This document shows positions 43,805-53,836 of a DNA stretch of 55,790 nucleotides, piece after piece. The notes below the pieces were generated by a model. The model saw only the letters and a program-made list of their open reading frames with translations, did not search any database and was not told the DNA's origin. Made by a program: the position numbers and the translations under genes. Position 1 is the stretch's first letter. Every line of letters starts with the position of its first letter. The DNA comes from Paracoccaceae bacterium (lineage in GTDB: Bacteria > Pseudomonadota > Alphaproteobacteria > Rhodobacterales > Rhodobacteraceae): positions 1 to 55,790 of the forward strand of contig JAIXZY010000029.1 in assembly GCA_027489355.1 (NCBI GenBank). Direction: 5' to 3'.

Positions 43805-45577
43805 ATGCCCAGCTATACCGCCCCCGTGAAGGACATGCAGTTCCTGCTGCACGACCTGCTGAAGATCAGCGAAGCCGACATTCCGGGCTATGCCGAGCTT
43901 GACCGCAGCTTCACCGGGGCGGTGCTGGACGAGGCCGCCAAGGTGGCGCAGGACGTCCTGGCGCCTCTGAACGCGGTGGGCGATGTCGAGGGCTGCGTGC
44001 TGGAGAACGGAGTCGTCCGCACGCCGAAAGGCTTCAAGGAGGCGTTCCGCACCCTGTCCGAAGGCGGCTGGATGTCGCTGGACGCTGCCCCGGACTATGG
44101 CGGGCAGGGGCTGCCCTACCTGATGCATACGGCCGTGAACGAGACCTTTGTTTCGGCCAACATGGCCTTCAACATGTACCAGGGGCTGACGCATGGGGCC
44201 TATTCCGCGATCCTGGCGCATGGGACCGAGGAGCAGAAGGCGAAGTGGCTGCCGAAGCTGGTGACGTGCGACTGGACGGGCACGATGAACCTGACCGAGC
44301 CGCATTGCGGCACGGACCTCGGGCTTCTCCGCACAAAGGCCGAGCCGCAGGCGGACGGGTCCTACAAGATTACCGGGCAGAAGATCTTCATTTCGGCCGG
44401 CGATCATGACATGGCCGAGAACATCGTCCACCTGGTGCTGGCGAAAGCGCCGGGCGGGGGCGAGGGGACGAAGGGGATCAGCCTCTTCATCGTGCCGAAG
44501 TTCCTGGTGAATGACGACGGCTCGCTGGGCCATCGCAATGCCGTGTCCGTGGGCAAGGTCGAAGAGAAGATGGGCATCCACGGCAACGCGACCTGCGTGA
44601 TGAACTACGACGGCGCGACGGGCTGGCTGCTGGGCGAGCTTCACAAGGGCATGAAGGCCATGTTCACGATGATGAACGAGGCCCGGCTTGGCGTGGCGCT
44701 GCAGGGCTATGCGGTGGCCGAGGCGGCCTACCAGAATGCGCTGGCCTATGCGAAGGATCGCCTGCAGGGCCGCGACGTGACCGGCGCGAAGAACCCGAAT
44801 GGTCCCGCCGATCCGCTGATCGTCCACCCGGACATCCGCCGCAATCTGATGGAGCAGAAGAGCTTCGTCGAAGGCGCCCGCGCGCTGACCTACTGGGGCG
44901 CGACCCTGATCGACCGCGCGCACCAGGGCGACGCGGCGGCGGACGGGCTGATCGGGCTTCTGACCCCGGTGCTCAAGGGCTTCCAGACCGACAAGGGGTT
45001 CGAGATGGCAGTGCAGGCCCAGCAGGTCTATGGCGGGCATGGCTATATCGAGGAATGGGGCATGTCGCAGTTCGCCCGCGACGCCCGGATCGCCATGATC
45101 TACGAAGGCGCGAACGGCGTGCAGGCGCTGGACCTCGTGGGCCGGAAACTTGCGACCGACGGCGGCAAGCATGTGATGGCCTTCTTTGAAATGGTGAAGG
45201 CCGAATGCAAGGCGCATGACGGCGACGAGCGGATGAGGGGGTTCGTGGAACCGCTGAAAACCGCGTCCAAGGCGCTGCAACAGGCGGGGATGTTCTTCAT
45301 GCAGAACGGGATGAAGAACCCGAACGCCGCGCTGGCCGGATCCTACGACTTCATGCACATGATGGGCCATGTCTGCCTTGGGCTGATGTGGACGCGCATG
45401 GCCAAGGCCGCCTATGAGGCGCTGGACGCCGGCGCGCAGGACCGCGACTTCTACGAGGCGAAGATCGCCACCGGGCGGTTCTACATGGCGCGCCAGCTGC
45501 CCGCCTGCGCGATGCACCTGATGCGCATCGAAAGCGGCGCCGATCCCGTCATGGCGCTGGCCGCCGAGGCGTTCTAG
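43805..45577 (+). CDS. Acyl-CoA dehydrogenase (long FadE/DmdC-like type)
   Basis: A 590-residue flavoenzyme for the first step of beta-oxidation. The N-terminal helical domain runs to about residue 160; the FAD/substrate region is [19 protein letters not shown]; the Glu base is in [38 protein letters not shown] precedes it. The extra C-terminal domain (about 130 residues) is typical of the branch that includes methylmercaptopropionyl-CoA dehydrogenase DmdC, so DMSP-type substrates are possible but unproven. GGGAAGAGGA precedes the ATG at 43805. Confidence 0.94.
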
Positions 45578-45636
45578 GCTTTGGCATCCGGGACGGGTCA
45601 TGAGGCTCGTCCCAGCCGGGTCTTGGAGGGATGGGC

Positions 45637-46260
45637 ATGAAACTCTACTGCTTCGCGGAAAGCGGCAACGCCTACAAATGCGCCTTGGCGCTGGAGATGA
45701 CGCGTCTCGACTGGGAGCCGGTCTTCGTCGACTTCTTCAAGGGCGAGGCGCGGAGCGCGGAGTTCAAGAAGATCAACGAGATGGGCGAAGTGCCGGTGCT
45801 GGTCGACGGCGAGACGACGCTGACCCAGTCGGGCGTCATCTTGGACTACATTTCGTCCAAGACGGGACAGTTGGGCGGCCGGTCCGCCGCCGAACGGCGC
45901 GAAGTGCTGCGCTGGCTTTTCTGGGACAACCACAAACTGTCCACCACCATCGGCACCTGCCGCTTCCTGATGAACTTCTTGCCGCCCGAAAAACGGCCCG
46001 AGGCCGTGATCCCCTTCCTGCAGGGCCGGTTGAAAGCCGCCTACGCCGTGCTGAACGACCACCTTGCAGAGCGCGACTGGATCGTGGGCGACGGGGTGAC
46101 GATCGCCGACCTTAGCTGCAGCGGCTATCTCTTCTATCCCGAGCCCTACGGCTTCACCCGCACGGACTGGCCGCACATCGACGCCTGGCTGACCCGCATC
46201 AGCGACCTGCCCGGCTGGAAACACCCCTACGACCTGATGCAGCGGGCCTTCCCCGCGTAA
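45637..46260 (+). CDS. Glutathione S-transferase family protein
   Basis: A 207-residue GST-fold protein. The thioredoxin-like domain begins MKLYCFAESGNAYKCALAL, with EMGEVPVLVDGETTLTQSGVILDYI carrying the cis-Pro and the Gln-Ser glutathione contacts; the helical domain follows (WIVGDGVTIADLSCSGYLF). The ATG at 45637 is preferred, since GGAGG lies about seven bases before it; an ATG at 45631 is almost on top of that site. GST genes are often found in such beta-oxidation operons of Rhodobacterales, their role unproven. Confidence 0.92.
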   Translation: MKLYCFAESGNAYKCALALEMTRLDWEPVFVDFFKGEARSAEFKKINEMGEVPVLVDGETTLTQSGVILDYISSKTGQLGGRSAAERREVLRWLFWDNHKLSTTIGTCRFLMNFLPPEKRPEAVIPFLQGRLKAAYAVLNDHLAERDWIVGDGVTIADLSCSGYLFYPEPYGFTRTDWPHIDAWLTRISDLPGWKHPYDLMQRAFPA

Positions 46261-46271
46261 GGAGACCTTCG

Positions 46272-47483
46272 ATGACCGACGCCTACATCTACGACGCCGT
46301 CCGCAGCCCCCGCGGCAAGGGCCGTCCCGACGGGTCTCTGCACGAACTGACCTCGGTCGCGTTGTCGGCCAAGGTGCTGAACGCAGTGAAGGAGCGGAAC
46401 GGGCTGGAGGGTCAGGCGGTTGAGGACGTGATCTGGGGCAACGTCACCCAGGTGGGCGAGCAGGGCGGCTGCCTGGCGCGGTCGGCGGTGCTGGCCAGCG
46501 ACCTTGACGAACGCATCCCCGGACTTGCGATCAACCGGTTCTGCGCCTCGGGAATGGAGGCGGTGAACCTGGCGGCGAACCAGGTCAAGGGCGGCGCGGG
46601 GCAGGCCTATATCGCGGGCGGGGTCGAGATGATGGGCCGCGTCGCGATGGGCTCGGACGGTGCGGCGATTGCCGTGGACCCTGGGCTGGCGATGAAGACC
46701 TACTTCGTGCCGCAGGGGATCAGCGCAGACATCATCGCCACCGAATACGGCTTTACCCGCGACCAGGCCGATGCGCTGGCCGTCGAATCCCAGCGCCGGG
46801 CCGCCGTAGCGTGGGCCGAGGGGCGGTTCGAGAAATCCGTCCTGACCATCGCAGACCAGAACGGCCTGCCGATCCTTGCGACCGACGAATACATGCGCCC
46901 CGGCACCGACATGCAGGCGCTTGGCGCGTTGCGGCCGGCGTTCAAGGACATGGGCGAGGTGATGCCCGGTTTCGACAAGGTCGCGATGATGAAGTACCCG
47001 CATCTGGAGCGGATCAACCACATCCACCATGCAGGGAACTCCAGCGGGATCGTGGACGGGGCGGCGGCGGTGCTGATCGGCAATGCCGAGTTCGGCAAGG
47101 CGCACGGGCTGAAGCCGCGCGCCCGCATCCGCGCCACGGCGAAGATCGGGACCGACCCGACGATCATGCTGACCGGCCCGGTCCCGGCGACGCAGAAGAT
47201 CCTGAAGGACAGCGGCATCAGCATCCGCGACATCGACCTCTTCGAGGTCAACGAAGCCTTCGCCTCCGTCGTCCTGCGCTTCCAGCAGGCCTTCGACGTG
47301 GACCCCGCGCTGGTCAACGTCAACGGCGGGGCGATCGCGATGGGCCATCCGCTTGGCGCGACCGGGGCGATCATCATCGGCACGCTTCTGGACGAGCTGG
47401 AGCGCCAGGACAAGGAGCTGGGCCTTGCCACGCTGTGCATTGCCTCGGGCATGGGCGCGGCCACGATCATCGAGCGCGTGTGA
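46272..47483 (+). CDS. Acetyl-CoA C-acyltransferase (thiolase, FadA/FadI type)
   Basis: A 403-residue thiolase that cleaves 3-ketoacyl-CoA in the last step of beta-oxidation. Nucleophile Cys91 (INRFCASGMEAVNLAA), the base His in GGAIAMGHPLGATGA, and the second active Cys in TLCIASGMGAATIIERV. The start YIYDAVRSPRGKGRPDGSL is typical of the FadA/FadI-like thiolases of Rhodobacteraceae. It is 11 bases after the GST gene and pairs functionally with the FadJ-type gene 3 kb downstream. Confidence 0.94.
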   Translation: MTDAYIYDAVRSPRGKGRPDGSLHELTSVALSAKVLNAVKERNGLEGQAVEDVIWGNVTQVGEQGGCLARSAVLASDLDERIPGLAINRFCASGMEAVNLAANQVKGGAGQAYIAGGVEMMGRVAMGSDGAAIAVDPGLAMKTYFVPQGISADIIATEYGFTRDQADALAVESQRRAAVAWAEGRFEKSVLTIADQNGLPILATDEYMRPGTDMQALGALRPAFKDMGEVMPGFDKVAMMKYPHLERINHIHHAGNSSGIVDGAAAVLIGNAEFGKAHGLKPRARIRATAKIGTDPTIMLTGPVPATQKILKDSGISIRDIDLFEVNEAFASVVLRFQQAFDVDPALVNVNGGAIAMGHPLGATGAIIIGTLLDELERQDKELGLATLCIASGMGAATIIERV

Positions 47484-47642
47484 TGCCGATCCGCGACAGG
47501 GATGAGCAAAACGGCAGACAGCCAGCGTCAGTCCGCGCTGGTGTCGCTTTTGCATCTGGAACTGTCGCAATCCTACGTCGCGCTGTGGGTGATTCTCCCA
47601 AGCTGGGTGCTTCCCTGGATTGCAGCACAAGGTTTTCGCGAC

Positions 47643-48065
47643 ATGCATTCGTCCCATTCGGCCCAGCTTCGCTTGCGGGGCGAGATGCTTCTGCAAGGCA
47701 GGATCGACGACCTGCTGGACGCCTATCTGTTCCCGCTGCCGATCTTCCTGCCCGAGCGCCGGATGCTGCTTCTGGGGCCGGATCACGCGCGGCTTGTGCT
47801 GGCGCTGTTGCACGACCAGCTGGTCCGGACGGGCATCGTGGCGGTCCGGCCCGAGTTGCGCGCGGTGGAACTTCCGCGGGACGGGCGCTATCGGCTTTGG
47901 GCGGACTGGCACGAGATCGACGCCTCGGGCGAGACGCGCAGCTCTTCGGCGATCTACTACTGCCGCACGACGGCGCTTGGCCCGCGGATCGAGATGGTCA
48001 ACTATACGCGCCTGTCGATGCCCGAGCTGAACCACGAGTTCGAGGCACTGGCCCTGTCCGCCTGA
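47643..48065 (+). CDS. NTF2-like-looking protein A, unknown function
   Basis: Not recognised by name. A 140-residue protein with an N-terminal helix (LRGEMLLQGRIDDLLDAYLF), a loop LPIFLPERRMLLLGPDHARL, a second helical part and alternating beta strands (RYRLWADWHEIDA, SSAIYYCRTTALGPRIEMVNY). This order matches proteins B (48582) and C (50194) and looks like the NTF2/SnoaL alpha-beta cone. The ATG at 47643 (AAGG ten bases before) is favoured: an in-frame start at 47502 would add a hydrophobic stretch with lower GC that has no match in the other two. It lies between the thiolase and a cupin gene. Confidence 0.6.
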   Translation: MHSSHSAQLRLRGEMLLQGRIDDLLDAYLFPLPIFLPERRMLLLGPDHARLVLALLHDQLVRTGIVAVRPELRAVELPRDGRYRLWADWHEIDASGETRSSSAIYYCRTTALGPRIEMVNYTRLSMPELNHEFEALALSA

Positions 48066-48114
48066 CGCCGGGCCGCTTCCGGTCGGGCGGCCCCCAACCG
48101 GATGGAGAGCCCGC

Positions 48115-48585
48115 GTGCCCGTGATTGACCCCGCCAAGGTGCCGGTAAAGACCGGATCGATCTACCCCGAACCCTATGCCAGCATGATGCAGGGCCGATC
48201 CTCGTTGCGGCTGGGCGAGGCGGGCGGGCTGACGCAGTTCGGGGTCAACCTGGTGACACTGGCACCCGGCGCGCTGTCAAGCCTGCGCCATTGGCACCGG
48301 CACGAGGATGAGTTCGTGATGGTGACCGAGGGGGAATGCACCCTGGTCCAGGACGCGGGCGAGACGGTGATGCGTCCCGGCGACTGCGCGGCCTTTCCGG
48401 CGGGGTCCACGGACGGCCACCACTTCATCAACCGGACCGACCGGCTGGCACGCTTCCTGGTCGTCGGCTCGAAGGCCCCGCGCGAGGTGGCGACCTATTC
48501 CGACGTCGATCTTGTCTGCGAGATCGAGGGCGGCAAGGCGCGCTTCACCTACAAGGACGGCACCGACTGGACAGGGCCGAGATGA
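48115..48585 (+). CDS. Single-domain cupin protein
   Basis: A 156-residue bicupin-like beta-barrel. Cupin motif 1 is HWHRHEDEFVMVTEG (HxH-x4-E-x6-G) and motif 2 is GDCAAFPAGSTDGHHFIN (P-x-G-x4-H-x3-N). All metal ligands are there, so it likely binds a divalent metal. The end (YSDVDLVCEIEGGKARFTYKDGTDW) recurs in the double-cupin protein nearby. The GTG start is preceded by GGATGGAG. It overlaps the next NTF2-like gene by four bases. The reaction or ligand is unknown. Confidence 0.85.
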   Translation: MPVIDPAKVPVKTGSIYPEPYASMMQGRSSLRLGEAGGLTQFGVNLVTLAPGALSSLRHWHRHEDEFVMVTEGECTLVQDAGETVMRPGDCAAFPAGSTDGHHFINRTDRLARFLVVGSKAPREVATYSDVDLVCEIEGGKARFTYKDGTDWTGPR

Positions 48586-49040
48586 ACCCTGTCGAGATCT
48601 TCCAGCAGGCGCTTGATGCGGTGACCCGGGCGGTGCGGGACCGGGATTTCGACGCCTACATGGAGTTGATCGACCTGCCGTATCTGGTGCAGACGCGCAG
48701 CGCGACGCATCTGGTGACAGAGGCCGAGGGCTTGCGCCCAAGCTTCCTGGCCCTGGCCGATGGCCTTGGGTCGCGTCGGATCACGCATTACGAACGGGTC
48801 GCGCGCAAGGCCGATTATGTGGCGCGGGACCGGATCGAGGGCTGGCACCACAGCCACCTCATCTCGGATGGCGAGCCGCTGGCCCTTCCGCACCTGTCAC
48901 GTCACGTCCTGGTGCGGCGGGATGATAGCTGGCTGTTTTCGGAAGCGCAGTACGACATGATCGAGGCTGCGCACTGGCCGCTGACCGAGGCGGATTTCTT
49001 CGGCCATGCCGATGCGCGTAACCGGCGGGCGGGACCGTGA
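48582..49040 (+). CDS. NTF2-like-looking protein B, unknown function
   Basis: A 152-residue protein with the same plan as its two neighbours A and C: helix (EIFQQALDAVTRAVRDRDFDAYMEL), an LPYLVQTRSATHLVTEAEG loop, a second helical part and strands. It shares with protein C a GEPLALPHLSRH.. / AHWPL pattern near the C-terminus (C has GEKLALP.. and ARWPM). There are no catalytic residues I can name. It overlaps the cupin gene before it and the double-cupin gene after it by four bases each, so the three are certainly one translation-coupled unit. Confidence 0.7.
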   Translation: MNPVEIFQQALDAVTRAVRDRDFDAYMELIDLPYLVQTRSATHLVTEAEGLRPSFLALADGLGSRRITHYERVARKADYVARDRIEGWHHSHLISDGEPLALPHLSRHVLVRRDDSWLFSEAQYDMIEAAHWPLTEADFFGHADARNRRAGP

Positions 49041-50041
49041 TCGTCCGCCCCGGCCAGATCCGGCGCAGCGAGACGCCCGCTGCCGATGTGCCTCGCCTTG
49101 GCCGGGCCGAGACGTTGCACCTGTCGGATGCAGGCGGGCTGACGCAGTTCGGGGTCCATCTGCAGACGCTGCATCCCGGAGCCTCGACCGGGGCGCGGCA
49201 CTGGCATTCCGCCGAGGACGAGTTCCTGTTCGTGCTGGATGGCTGCGTGACGCTGCGGGACGATCAGGGCGCGCAGGACCTGGGTCCGGACGATGCCGTC
49301 TGCTGGCCGCAGGGTCGGGCCAACGGGCACTGCCTGATGAACCACAGTACGACGCCGTGCCGGTACCTGATCGTCGGCAGCCGCGCGCAGGGTGATGTCT
49401 GCACCTACCCCGACGAGGGCCGCCGCCAGATCAACGAGGCCAGGACCTGGCGCATCGAGGCCGCGGACGGCTCGGTGGTGAAGTCCGGCGATCTGCCGCC
49501 CGAGCTGCTGGGCCTGCGCGCGCCCTGGGGACGGCCGTTCGACGGGCTCGACCGGCCGCAGGTGATCCGCGCGGGCTCGGTTCCGGGGACCAGCGACCCC
49601 GGCTCGGCCGCTGGTCTGTTTGGCGGTCTTGGCGACTACGTCGCCTGGCCGCTGTCGGACGCCGGGGGCCTGACCCAGTTCGGCGCCTTCACCGAAACGC
49701 TGATGCCCGGAGGACGGTCCAGCCACCGGCACTGGCACGCCGAGGAAGACGAGTTCCTGTACACGCTGGACGGCGTGGTCACCCTGCACGAGGACGGTGG
49801 TCCGCAGGACCTGCCGCCAGGAAGCTGCGTCTGCTGGCCTGCAGGGGTGGCGAACGGGCATTGCCTGGAAAACCGCACCAACGGTCCGGTCCGGTACCTC
49901 GTCGTCGGCACGCGCCTGCCCGAGGACGAGGTCACCTATCCCGACATCGACCTGCACTGCACCCGCCGTGGCGGACGTCGCACCCTGTCGCACAAGGACG
50001 GGACGCCCTATCCGGGCTGGCCGCGCGAGGACCAGCGATGA
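49037..50041 (+). CDS. Double-cupin protein
   Basis: A 334-residue protein with two full cupin domains. Domain 1 (about residues 20-140): HWHSAEDEFLFVLDG and WPQGRANGHCLMN. Domain 2 (about 190-330): HWHAEEDEFLYTLDG and WPAGVANGHCLEN. Both keep HxH-x4-E and the second-motif His, so two metal sites are likely. Domain 2 also repeats the YPDIDLHCTRRGGRRTLSHK tail found in the single-cupin protein. It appears to be a fusion of two copies of that gene. It uses a GTG start in a GTGA overlap. Confidence 0.85.
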   Translation: MIVRPGQIRRSETPAADVPRLGRAETLHLSDAGGLTQFGVHLQTLHPGASTGARHWHSAEDEFLFVLDGCVTLRDDQGAQDLGPDDAVCWPQGRANGHCLMNHSTTPCRYLIVGSRAQGDVCTYPDEGRRQINEARTWRIEAADGSVVKSGDLPPELLGLRAPWGRPFDGLDRPQVIRAGSVPGTSDPGSAAGLFGGLGDYVAWPLSDAGGLTQFGAFTETLMPGGRSSHRHWHAEEDEFLYTLDGVVTLHEDGGPQDLPPGSCVCWPAGVANGHCLENRTNGPVRYLVVGTRLPEDEVTYPDIDLHCTRRGGRRTLSHKDGTPYPGWPREDQR

Positions 50042-50193
50042 GCACGCAGAATTATTTTGAAAAGTCGGGAACCGAACCTGCAGCCTTGGGTTGTAATTAT
50101 CGTATTGGTATGTCCGCAAGGATGCATTTCTTGAGTGCCGGTCGCCTCTTGCAGCGGGGTGGCCTTCCCCCCGATTGCGAAGGAGACATATTG

Positions 50194-50640
50194 ATGCCGG
50201 CATCGGCCATCCTGCAGACCTACCTCGACGACATGGGCCGGATCGTGATGAACGAATGGTTCGAGGACTATGCCGCACGCGTCCAGCTGCCACTGATCAT
50301 ACTGACGTCGTCGGCCACGCTGACCGTCACGACCCGCGAGGACCTGGAGGACGGGTTCGACAACTTCGTGGAAATGATCCGCAGCCACGGCGTGACCCGC
50401 ATGATCCGCACCGTGCAAGCAGCCACCTATCAGGGCAACGACCACGTCGTCGGCGTCTATGAGACCAAGCTGATGGCGGGCGAGAAGCTTGCCCTTCCGG
50501 TCTTCCATTCGAAGATGTGGATCGGCTGCTACGGCGGCGTCTGGAAGGCGATCAAGATCCACAACACCACCAAAGAGGCGCGCTGGCCGATGCTGCTGAC
50601 GCGTCTCGCGCCCGAACACTGGCTATCCGAGGAGTTCTGA
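50194..50640 (+). CDS. NTF2-like-looking protein C, unknown function
   Basis: A 148-residue relative of A and B. N-terminal helix LQTYLDDMGRIVMNEWFEDY, loop LPLIILTSSATLTVTTRED, helices (LEDGFDNFVEMIRSHGVTR) and strands (MIRTVQAATYQGNDHVVGVY, FHSKMWIGCYGGVWKAIKI). The ATG at 50194 has AAGGAGA seven bases before it. It is preceded by a 152-base AT-rich gap that may hold its own promoter. It is one base before the FadJ-type start, so its expression is tied to beta-oxidation. Confidence 0.7.
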   Translation: MPASAILQTYLDDMGRIVMNEWFEDYAARVQLPLIILTSSATLTVTTREDLEDGFDNFVEMIRSHGVTRMIRTVQAATYQGNDHVVGVYETKLMAGEKLALPVFHSKMWIGCYGGVWKAIKIHNTTKEARWPMLLTRLAPEHWLSEEF

Positions 50641-50641
50641 G

Positions 50642-52831
50642 ATGCCCGACTTCACCATGACCACCGACGCCGACGGCGTCGCCACTATCACCTGGGACGT
50701 TCCGTCGAAGTCGATGAACGTCATGTCGACCGAGGCGTTCATGGTGCTGAACGGCCTTGTCGACCAGGCGCTGGCGGATGGGTCGGTGAAGGGGGTGATC
50801 ATCACCTCGGGCAAGAAGGACTTTGCCGGGGGCATGGACCTGAACGTCATCGCCCAGATGCGGGCCGGGGGCGCCGGGGCGATCTTCGATGGTGTGATGC
50901 AGATGCACCAGGTCCTGCGCAAGATCGAGCGTGCGGGTATGGACCCGAAGACGCTGAAGGGCGGCAAGCCCATCGTGGCCGCCCTGCCGGGGACGGCGCT
51001 GGGGATCGGGCTGGAGCTTCCGCTCTCGTGCCACCGGATCATCGCCGCGGACAATCCGAAGGCGAAGATCGGCCTGCCCGAGATCATGGTCGGCATCTTC
51101 CCCGGCGCGGGCGGAACGACGCGGCTCGTCCGCAAGCTGGGCGCGATGGCCGCCGCACCGTTCCTGTTGGAGGGCAAGCTTTCGTCTCCGAAAGAGGCGA
51201 AGGCCGCCGGGATCATCGACGAGGTCGTTGCGCCCCAGGACCTGTTGAAGCGGGCAAAGGAATGGGTGCTGTCCGCCACGGATGCGGACTTGGTGAAGCC
51301 CTGGGACGCCAAGGGCTACAAGATGCCCGGCGGCGCGCCCTATCATCCGGCAGGGTTCATGACCTTCGTCGGGGCCAGCGCGATGGTGCATGGCAAGACG
51401 ATGGGCGTCTATCCCGCGGCGAAGGCCCTGCTGGCGGCGGTGTATGAGGGCGCGCTGGTGCCGTTCGACACCGCGCTGAAGATCGAGGCGCGGCACTTCA
51501 CCTCGGTCCTGATGAACCCCTCGTCCAGCGCGATGATCCGCAGCCTCTTCATCAACAAGGAGGCGCTGGAAAAGGGCGCGAACCGGCCCAAGGTCGAGGA
51601 CATGGCCGTGAAGAAGCTGGGCGTGATCGGTGCGGGGATGATGGGCGCGGGCATCGCCTATGTCGCCGCCAATGCCGGGATCGAGGTGGTTCTGATCGAC
51701 TCCACGCAGGAAGCGGCGGATCGCGGCAAGGCGCATTCCGAGGGCATCCTCGACAAGGGGATGAAGCGCGGCAAGGTGACGGCGGAGAAGAAGGCCGAGG
51801 TGCTGGGCCGGATCACCGCGACGCCGGAATATGCGGCGCTGGCGGGCGTTGACCTGGTGGTCGAGGCGGTGTTCGAGGACCCGAAGGTGAAGGCCGAGGT
51901 CACGGCGAAGGTCGAGGCGGCGGTGGGTGCTGACTGCATCTATGCGACCAACACCTCCACACTGCCGATCACCGGCTTGGCGGCGGCCAGCAAGCGGCCC
52001 GAGCAATTCATCGGCATCCACTTCTTCAGCCCCGTCGACAAGATGATGCTGGTCGAGATCATCCGCGGCAAGACGACCGGCGACAAGGCGGTGGCCAAGG
52101 CGCTGGATTTCGTGCGGCAGATCCGCAAGACCCCCATCGTCGTCAACGACGCGCGGTTCTTCTACGCCAACCGCTGCATCATCCCCTACATCAACGAAGG
52201 CATCCGCATGGTGGCCGAGGGCGTGGAACCAGCGCTGGTCGAGAATGCCGCGAAGCTGGTGGGGATGCCGCTGGGTCCGCTGCAGCTGGTCGATGAAACC
52301 TCGATCGACCTTGGGGTGAAGATCGCCAAGGCCACCAAGGCGGCGATGGGCAAGGACTACCCCGACGAGGCGGTGGATCATGTCCTGTTCTGGATGGCCG
52401 ACCAGGGGCGGCTCGGCAAGAAGGCCAATGCGGGCTTCTACGCCTATTCCGACAAGGGGGAACGTCTGGGCCTGTGGGAGGGGCTGGAGCAGAAGTACCC
52501 GCTGGACAAGATGCAGCCTTCGCTGGCTGACGTGCAACACCGTCTCCTCTTCGCGCAGGTGCTGGAAGCCGTTCGGGCTCTGGAAGAGGGCGTGTTGACC
52601 GACATCCGCGAGGGCGATGTGGGCGCGATTCTGGGCTGGGGTTTCGCGCCCTGGTCTGGCGGGCCGTTCAGCTGGCTCGACATGATCGGCGCAGGCCGCG
52701 CAGTGGAAATCTGCCGGGGCCTGACGGCGCAGTTCGGGCCACGCTTCCATGCGCCGGCCTTGCTGCGGGAAATGGCCGAGACGGGTCAGACCTTCTATGG
52801 CCGGTTCGCGGGCGAGAAGGCCGCAGCGTAA
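50642..52831 (+). CDS. Multifunctional FadJ/FadB: enoyl-CoA hydratase and 3-hydroxyacyl-CoA dehydrogenase
   Basis: A 729-residue fused enzyme for steps two and three of beta-oxidation. The hydratase part runs to about residue 200: FAGGMDLNVIAQM, GIGLELPLSCHRII and GLPEIMVGIFPGAGGTTR carry the oxyanion hole and both catalytic Glu. The dehydrogenase part starts near residue 322: NAD loop KLGVIGAGMMGAGIAYVAANAG, catalytic His in IGIHFFSPVDKMMLVEII, then the C-terminal helical domains with FYANRCIIPYINEGIRM. A perfect palindrome follows the stop codon. It works with the thiolase at 46272. Confidence 0.95.
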   Translation: MPDFTMTTDADGVATITWDVPSKSMNVMSTEAFMVLNGLVDQALADGSVKGVIITSGKKDFAGGMDLNVIAQMRAGGAGAIFDGVMQMHQVLRKIERAGMDPKTLKGGKPIVAALPGTALGIGLELPLSCHRIIAADNPKAKIGLPEIMVGIFPGAGGTTRLVRKLGAMAAAPFLLEGKLSSPKEAKAAGIIDEVVAPQDLLKRAKEWVLSATDADLVKPWDAKGYKMPGGAPYHPAGFMTFVGASAMVHGKTMGVYPAAKALLAAVYEGALVPFDTALKIEARHFTSVLMNPSSSAMIRSLFINKEALEKGANRPKVEDMAVKKLGVIGAGMMGAGIAYVAANAGIEVVLIDSTQEAADRGKAHSEGILDKGMKRGKVTAEKKAEVLGRITATPEYAALAGVDLVVEAVFEDPKVKAEVTAKVEAAVGADCIYATNTSTLPITGLAAASKRPEQFIGIHFFSPVDKMMLVEIIRGKTTGDKAVAKALDFVRQIRKTPIVVNDARFFYANRCIIPYINEGIRMVAEGVEPALVENAAKLVGMPLGPLQLVDETSIDLGVKIAKATKAAMGKDYPDEAVDHVLFWMADQGRLGKKANAGFYAYSDKGERLGLWEGLEQKYPLDKMQPSLADVQHRLLFAQVLEAVRALEEGVLTDIREGDVGAILGWGFAPWSGGPFSWLDMIGAGRAVEICRGLTAQFGPRFHAPALLREMAETGQTFYGRFAGEKAAA

Positions 52832-52876: not shown

Positions 52877-53836
52877 TCAAGGATTGACGTGGTTCGGCAA
52901 GGGTTGCCCCTCGACCCAGGCAATCAGGTTCGTCACCGCCATCATCCCCATGTTCTCGCGCACCTCCAGGCAGGCGGTGCCGAGATGCGGCAGCAGGGTG
53001 ACGTTCTCCATCGCCATGAGCGCGGCCGGGACCTTCGGCTCGAACTCATAGACATCAAGCCCGGCGCCCGCGATCCGACCTGCCTGCAGCGCGTCGATCA
53101 GCGCCGCCTCGTCCACCACGTCGCCGCGAGAGATGTTCACGAAGATGCCTGAGGGCTTCATCATCCCAAGGACGCTGGCATCGATCAGGTGATAGGTCGC
53201 CTTGCCCCCAGGCACTGCGACCACTACGAAATCCGCCGCCATCGCCTCGTCCATCTCGACCTGCCGTGCTGGCAGACCGGGGTCGGCGACGCGGGAGCGG
53301 TTGTAGAACACCACCTCCATGTCGAAGCCGTAGTGGCAGCGTCGGGCAATCGCCTTGCCGATCCGGCCCATTCCGATCACCCCCAACCGCTTGCCGGTGA
53401 CGTGGGTCCCCAGCATCTGCACCGGCCCCCAGCCGTCCCACTTGCCCGCGCGCAGGATTCGTTCACCCTCGCCCAGGCGGCGCGCGGTCATCAGGATCAG
53501 GGACAGCGCGATGTCGGCCGTCGCATCCGTGACCGCACCGGGAGTATTGGTGACCGCGATGCCCGCCGCCCTGGCGGCCTCGGCGTCGATGTGGTTGTAG
53601 CCCACCCCGAAGTTCGCGAGGATCCTCGCCCGCGGCTGGGGAACATCCGCGAAGACCTCGGCGCGGAAGAGATCGCCCAGCGTCGGCAGAACGGCGTCAT
53701 AGTCGCGAAGCGCGGCTCGCAATTCCTCGGGTGTCAGCACATCCGTCCGGTCGCGGAGGGTCACGTCGAACCTCGCACGCGCGGCGTCGAGAACGCGGTC
53801 GGGCAGGCGGCGTGTGATGAGGAGCTTCTGTTTCAA
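52877..53836 (-). CDS. D-2-hydroxyacid dehydrogenase (glyoxylate/hydroxypyruvate reductase type)
   Basis: A 319-residue NAD(P)-dependent enzyme. NAD loop LGVIGMGRIGKAIARRC, catalytic Arg in FVNISRGDVVDEAAL, Glu in DVYEFEPKVPAAL and His in LLPHLGTACLEVRE. The opening MKQKLLITRRLPDRVLDAA and the long VGYNHIDAEAARAAGIAVTNTPG region fit the GyaR/glycerate dehydrogenase branch. Its start overlaps the CsaA-like gene by four bases. Probably reduces glyoxylate or hydroxypyruvate. Confidence 0.93.
   Translation of the reverse strand: MKQKLLITRRLPDRVLDAARARFDVTLRDRTDVLTPEELRAALRDYDAVLPTLGDLFRAEVFADVPQPRARILANFGVGYNHIDAEAARAAGIAVTNTPGAVTDATADIALSLILMTARRLGEGERILRAGKWDGWGPVQMLGTHVTGKRLGVIGMGRIGKAIARRCHYGFDMEVVFYNRSRVADPGLPARQVEMDEAMAADFVVVAVPGGKATYHLIDASVLGMMKPSGIFVNISRGDVVDEAALIDALQAGRIAGAGLDVYEFEPKVPAALMAMENVTLLPHLGTACLEVRENMGMMAVTNLIAWVEGQPLPNHVNP

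Follow-up and report, generated by a model that had tools for sequence, protein, structure and literature searches.

Why should five small genes lie between the thiolase and the FadJ-type gene of a beta-oxidation operon, two genes that are often direct neighbours? The question is raised by a 55,790-nucleotide stretch of DNA from Paracoccaceae bacterium (assembly GCA_027489355.1, contig JAIXZY010000029.1; the whole stretch is referred to as the window). Its forward strand carries, in this order, genes for an acyl-CoA dehydrogenase, a GST-like protein, a thiolase (46272-47483; Thiolase_N and Thiolase_C), NTF2-like protein A (47643-48065, 140 amino acids), a metallo-cupin termed CUP1 (48115-48585, GTG start), NTF2-like protein B (48582-49040, with 4-base overlaps at both ends), a bicupin with two metallo-cupin domains (49037-50041, GTG start), NTF2-like protein C (50194-50640, 148 amino acids) and a FadJ-type hydratase/dehydrogenase (50642-52831; ECH_1, 3HCDH_N and 3HCDH). 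The five genes between thiolase and FadJ and their alternating NTF2-like/cupin order, first described in a sequence-only reading, were borne out by gene calls and family assignments, and the gene order acyl-CoA dehydrogenase, GST, thiolase, FadJ recurs in relatives as a type of beta-oxidation operon. The account that we favour, and hold tentatively, is that the main beta-oxidation operon of the Rhodobacteraceae has, in its thiolase-FadJ gap, an accessory slot, refilled and emptied often, which supplies a cupin enzyme and acyl-CoA pocket proteins. Both folds are already known; a literature search covering mostly open-access papers found none that describes the variable slot or joins cupin and NTF2-like genes in this operon, and the portions of PMC6061476 and PMC6922389 at hand have no bearing on the slot question.

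The gap was surveyed in 149 genomes of the family, one per genus and with our own included, and FadJ was found in 147 of them (E 1e-100). From family genomes 147 regions were fetched and the content of the gap was assigned with profiles (domain E no higher than 0.01), five regions with FadJ elsewhere being replaced by second regions of those genomes. With our own genome excluded, 141 loci had both flanks; two genomes without FadJ, four with FadJ at a contig start or unlisted and one cut by a contig end were not counted. A cupin and/or an NTF2-like gene was present in 80 of these 141 one-per-genus loci (cupin only in 34, NTF2-like only in 30, both in 16), neither was present in 60, and one gap held a FadJ fragment. 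The conservation of such genes beside fad genes, for which a neighbourhood survey had been suggested, was thus confirmed. Among the 60 loci with neither type, the gap measured 6-132 bases in 52, 150-218 bases in three and more in five, and of these five, L146 and L174 each contain a single clear gene of another kind, which by eye we take to be NADAR-like and Fic/Doc-like, and L175, L179 and L197 contain a small frame. Eleven filled gaps include a stretch of more than 250 bases beyond the assigned genes, partly leader or spacer. All 29 same-genus loci with both flanks contain both gene types (a contig end truncates two more regions); their domains come in twelve different orders, and the order of the window is repeated in five of the 29. 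Fusions are common, since one open frame is shared by 22 of 37 pairs of neighbouring cupin domains and by nine of 14 NTF2-NTF2 neighbours.

With the window counted and the FadJ-fragment locus excluded, NTF2-like genes occur in 47 of 141 loci and cupins in 51, and the 17 loci with both equal the 17.0 expected by chance, so that the two gene types are statistically independent. A pairwise comparison on the FadJ tree gave no link between them either way, informative pairs being few. For turnover, a tree was built by a quick method from FadJ alone and minimum numbers of changes were compared with those of 200 shuffles, this single gene tree being a limited yardstick on which gain and loss are indistinguishable. 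The cupin state required 35 changes (shuffled mean 41.9; three of the 200 shuffles as low) and the state of holding either type 46 (shuffled mean 45.8; 122 of the 200 as low). Genus-level presence thus appears nearly independent of ancestry, with weak inheritance for the cupins. One form that such turnover could take, which we regard as doubtful, is an exchange slot in which cupins and NTF2-like genes are swapped through homologous recombination in thiolase and fadJ, retuning the pathway to niche acyl substrates; if true, it would resemble an integron-like cassette site, but one for pocket proteins and located within central metabolism.

The near-random presence on the FadJ tree also favours the strongest rival explanation, which sees in the slot a permissive hot spot whose genes, unrelated to fatty acids and serving stress, sensing or competition, would profit from good expression and from being exchanged through homologous recombination between the conserved flanks. 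This we judge unlikely, although it is also favoured by the fast evolution of the NTF2-like genes (see below) and by their occurrence elsewhere: copies stand in the gap between the L16 and S17 ribosomal genes in three genera, antisense to the ribosomal genes, beside EF-Ts and purK in the same direction as their neighbours, and near ribonucleotide reductase genes with a DUF1489 gene between. Speaking against it is the preference for one site and one strand. An NTF2 profile of 52 rows, which come mostly from this site and so favour relatives of its members, gave 85 matches in 56 of the 149 family genomes (a search with B alone matched in 32 of the 149); 65 of these are found no more than 5 kb upstream of FadJ on the operon strand, and in G061 and G142, where the contigs are split, two more stand between thiolase and FadJ. 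Hence 67 of the 85, three of them the window's own, occupy the slot on the operon strand, the ribosomal-gap copies of the three genera being antisense. Other inserts in the slot are rare, and the cupin, constrained about as strongly as FadJ, also occupies the thiolase-FadJ gap in some loci outside the family. A defence role was rejected, as a search with the PADLOC anti-phage profiles (E 0.1) gave no match for A, B, the bicupin or C and for CUP1 only four weak partial matches, the best at E 0.012.

Several off-site copies had neighbours of their own. In L255 and L260 an NTF2-like gene and a PF13759 2OG-Fe(II) oxygenase gene stand between L16 and S17 (with a ferritin-like gene as well in L260), and in L256 they stand between L16 and S8-L6. 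A general partnership between NTF2-like proteins and this oxygenase was considered and dismissed because the NTF2 profile reports only few copies outside the slot; the oxygenase is present in 89 of the 149 family genomes and was seen to adjoin an NTF2-like gene in three loci, the only ones whose neighbourhood was inspected. A fused NTF2-NTF2 gene lies upstream of a TRAP transporter, an IclR regulator and a second FadJ-type gene with thiolase in L274 (10246-18740), and an A-type NTF2-like gene lies directly 3' of a DAO/GCV_T gene in L265 (3674-6816, genome G055).

The alternating order in the window had been taken as the mark of a duplicated [NTF2-like + cupin] module, and a recently duplicated module of this kind could represent a dedicated new pathway. 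The trees, each of which includes part of the same-genus loci, make this very improbable. The cupin tree (89 rows, with 40 of its 86 inner branches starred) places each of the three domains in a lineage of its own that spans several genera: CUP1 in a large one, the bicupin N-domain in a clade of ten rows (support 100/98) and the bicupin C-domain in a clade of eight (100/94). In the NTF2-like tree (90 rows; 40 of 87 inner branches starred) the 24 A-type rows form a deep branch (100/99) set apart from B and C, B is a same-genus clade of eight rows (99/98), and C comprises ten same-genus rows (100/99) that join the genes of two other genera weakly (90/59). These are old lineages, the gene types are independent across the family as described above, and B and the bicupin occur apart from one another, as exemplified among same-genus loci by B without the bicupin in L103, L115 and L130 and by the bicupin without B in L120 and L132. 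The duplication claim was accordingly abandoned; judged from the trees, the cassette is one assembled from old paralogs and not a duplicated pair.

Evolutionary rates separate the two kinds of slot gene. As estimated by a simple counting method from pairs with a synonymous divergence (dS) of 0.2-1.5 (13-30 same-genus loci per gene), the median ratio of nonsynonymous to synonymous divergence (dN/dS) is 0.126 for CUP1, 0.113 for FadJ and 0.089 for thiolase, and 0.50, 0.30 and 0.34 for A, B and C, respectively. By this measure the cupin behaves as a core enzyme and the NTF2-like genes as fast-changing accessories.

Both cupin proteins match Cupin_2 (CUP1 E 8e-19, 67.5 bits; bicupin, over two stretches, E 1e-31, 108.5 bits; cut-off 27.2) and thereby belong to that family. 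As had been claimed, the H-H-E-H metal ligands (H59, H61, E66 and H102) are complete in all three cupin domains of the window, and of 134 cupin domain rows (the three of the window and 131 from fetched loci, fragments being excluded) 131 retain them. G43 is kept in 133 of 133 rows, and N106 and G118 in 134 of 134. A tail said to be common to the three domains is clear in CUP1 and the second bicupin domain and weaker in the first. CUP1 aligns over residues 1-153 with PDB entry 3i7d (E 6.7e-53), a near full-length match with the same ligand pattern; this entry, named 'sugar phosphate isomerase' by its depositors, is a single domain, unlike the bicupin, which matches it with E 4.5e-29. We take 3i7d to be SPO2919 of Silicibacter/Ruegeria pomeroyi, and a literature search on the entry name returned no paper. 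None of the named NCBIfam cupin enzymes exceeded its curated cut-off, the highest score being 25.5 against 175; mandelonitrile lyase, for instance, scored 20.5 (cut-off 140), ureidoglycine aminohydrolase 23.2 (cut-off 200) and the oxalate decarboxylase family 19.7 (cut-off 254.2). The metallo-cupin, which evolves slowly, is most likely an enzyme, as is the bicupin. In a survey of the class, a CUP1 relative (E 1e-20) was present in 58 of 240 genomes, two of them from our own family, and outside the family it lay between thiolase and FadJ in three of the 19 best loci inspected. Extra-family contexts were mixed, a Pfam match being obtained on a flanking open reading frame (ORF) in six of the 19 loci (DctP; uracil phosphoribosyltransferase; TRCF with CopCD; GNAT; ABC transporter; PNPase). 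The part of PMC12356543 at hand, which deals with COG3837 cupins in fungal epoxyquinone pathways, has no bearing on the slot question.

The assignment of A, B and C to the NTF2-like superfamily, in which a curved, cone-forming beta sheet comes after the helices, is based on predicted models for A and C and on homology for B, and agrees with the folds previously proposed for the locus. The models of A (predicted local distance difference test score, pLDDT, 92) and C (pLDDT 85) both have the NTF2/ketosteroid isomerase fold, and their PDB fold matches agree. B matches C within its own genome (E 4.4e-9), iterated B and C profiles converge on gene sets of equal size with complete ORF overlap, and comparison of the A profile with that of B/C gave E 4.8e-6 and a probability of 86. 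For Pfam SnoaL_3 (cut-off 22 bits) B reached a sub-cut-off 18.1 bits (E 0.0035) and A and C gave no match; among the 52 NTF2-like rows, two match SnoaL_3 (best E 0.0035) and five match DUF6841 (best E 0.00011) at E 0.1 or better. The residues kept in the B/C type are Q8 (43/52), D12 (41/52), R72 (47/52) and W117 (50/51), and those kept in the A type are R82 (13/16), Y105 (13/16) and E117 (12/16). Of two motifs that B and C had been said to share, GE-x-LALP was upheld and (A/H)WP(L/M) fails for C, B having HWPL and C RWPM. Pseudomonas putida ketosteroid isomerase accounts for many of the top 50 Foldseek matches of A, from E 2.5e-6, at an identity of 12-16%, designed NTF2 proteins ranking above it; for the NTF2/SnoaL dehydratases BaiE and SteC, 4l8p shows an identity of 5%. 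With the NTF2 profile (E 0.001), the survey of the class matched in 11 of the 240 genomes, two of them from our own family.

A further alternative gives the NTF2-like proteins and cupins a non-catalytic part, as subunits or adaptors that would tune the assembly of a FadJ-thiolase complex or its choice of chain length. NTF2-fold beta subunits play such a non-catalytic role in ring-hydroxylating dioxygenases, and dioxygenase beta subunits are present in the fold list of C; the genes are placed between the two partners of the complex; cupin genes overlap FadJ at 30 of 60 junctions and NTF2-like genes at 15 of 49; and the NTF2-like set lacks an invariant residue. On the other side, metal ligands retained in nearly every cupin row would be superfluous in a scaffold, and 60 of the 141 genera do without both types. 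We therefore consider this alternative improbable.

The accessory-slot account assumes instead that the thiolase-FadJ gap is repeatedly filled and emptied with two kinds of small pocket proteins, made from one message with the acyl-CoA dehydrogenase, thiolase and FadJ and serving a common pool of substrates. The metallo-cupin or bicupin would act as a metalloenzyme, and the NTF2-like proteins, often paired by fusion, would be lineage-specific acyl-CoA pocket proteins of the dehydratase, isomerase or binding type. Non-standard acyl-CoA intermediates (hydroxylated, unsaturated or ring-bearing, for example) would be converted or held so that FadJ and thiolase can proceed; handling of an acyl group ahead of FadJ, as suggested earlier, is possible on this account. 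The division of roles between a metalloenzyme and substrate-specific pocket proteins is proposed because of the operon context, the known functions of the NTF2 fold and the examples of SteC and BaiE. The excerpt of PMC8851701 at hand lists dehydratases, isomerases, epoxide hydrolases and cyclases among the functions of this fold, and that of PMC13101464 describes SteC and BaiE as steroid-acid dehydratases.

Several observations weigh against the accessory-slot account. As 60 of the 141 genera have the operon with neither gene type, the genes are dispensable for beta-oxidation as such. On the FadJ tree the NTF2-like state shows no clustering, with at least 37 changes against a shuffled mean of 39.6 (as low in 38 of the 200 shuffles), and 18 NTF2-like copies lie outside the slot, several of them in ribosomal and other core operons. 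In 16 of the 19 class loci, thiolase and FadJ are absent around the cupin (flanks of about 1.5 kb examined). Overlaps are in the minority at thiolase-to-NTF2 (9/70), NTF2-to-cupin (16/55) and NTF2-to-FadJ (15/49) junctions. No universal catalytic set is visible, because the 52-row NTF2 alignment has no invariant column, and the fold indicates no single function, the list for C being headed by a designed vitamin-D3 binder and containing many non-enzymes. Should the accessory-slot account nevertheless apply, beta-oxidation, usually seen as a fixed core pathway, would acquire accessory steps lineage by lineage. It would also provide a testable setting for cupin 3i7d, which has a solved structure but no named function, and for several orphan NTF2-like families.

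The remaining operon members fit the recurring gene order. The acyl-CoA dehydrogenase (43805-45577, about 590 amino acids, forward strand) resembles the acyl-CoA dehydrogenase 6ijc (E 3.1e-295), the alignment with which was used to infer its start, and keeps the same position in most of the relatives' loci read. We take 6ijc to be a DmdC and SPO2915 of R. pomeroyi to be its orthologue. SPO2915 is listed as DmdC3 in PMC5395565, which reports that DmdC enzymes accept acyl-CoAs of various short to medium chain lengths and, in the part at hand, does not mention cupin or NTF2-like neighbours of this gene. The forward-strand gene at 45631-46260 is matched by homologs at the equivalent position in the named loci and in most other regions. 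Its designation as GST is our presumption. Gene C carriers by name are Tabrizicola, Rhodobacter and unclassified alphaproteobacterial records, among them the culturable Tabrizicola aquatica RCRI19 and Rhodobacter sp. SY28-1, which share the cassette; in these eight named loci (L032-L039, treated as genomes also in the genus set and counted once) the full order is kept in six, L039 ends before thiolase, and neither B nor the bicupin is present in L034 and L037, the latter of which has a short A as well.

Two of the 4-base overlaps described earlier are real (48582-48585 and 49037-49040) and link three genes, the cupin, B and the bicupin. A possible third overlap at 50038 is probably unused and C probably starts at 50194 instead, because 67 of 107 C homologs are exactly 148 amino acids long and GAAGGAG stands in front of 50194; a good part of the remaining homologs are annotated as a longer form of at least 200 amino acids. 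Likewise, A probably starts at 47643 and not at 47502, since 58 of its 106 homologs have 141 amino acids and 17 have 142, and the spacing is conserved.

The forward-strand leader before A (47484-47642) contains GGGTGATTCTCCC at 47587-47599 and a conserved open frame, which starts at an ATG overlapping the thiolase stop (47482 onward). Allowing up to two mismatches, GGGTGATTCTCCC is present, its spacing nearly fixed, in 21 of the 26 same-genus loci that begin with A, in none of the three that begin with a cupin and in none of the 141 family gaps. A role as a regulon signal was rejected: the motif appears locus-specific because GTGATTCTCCC occurs only once in its own genome. An ATG lies 2-8 bases past the thiolase stop in 21 of the 24 rows bearing the motif; three more loci are without the motif. 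The frame read as GGT-GAT-TCT-CCC has no stops in 22 rows, against 19 and 54 in the other frames, and synonymous differences are in excess (0.371 against 0.253 expected, the rows being related). By these coding signs the leader is possibly a translated leader or a small protein; an Rfam scan of 47000-51000 (E up to 1) gave no match. A 213-amino-acid ORF in another frame over gene A was weighed as a rival gene and rejected; over A it looks like an ordinary open frame in GC-rich coding DNA, and in the leader it shows some coding-like constraint. The spacer before C (50042-50193) is AT-richer by eye and has a counterpart of variable length in several same-genus loci; it could carry an internal promoter for C and FadJ. 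After FadJ, a reverse-strand gene at 52877-53836 resembles, by eye, a 2-hydroxyacid dehydrogenase and occupies the same place in seven of the eight named loci and in many same-genus regions.

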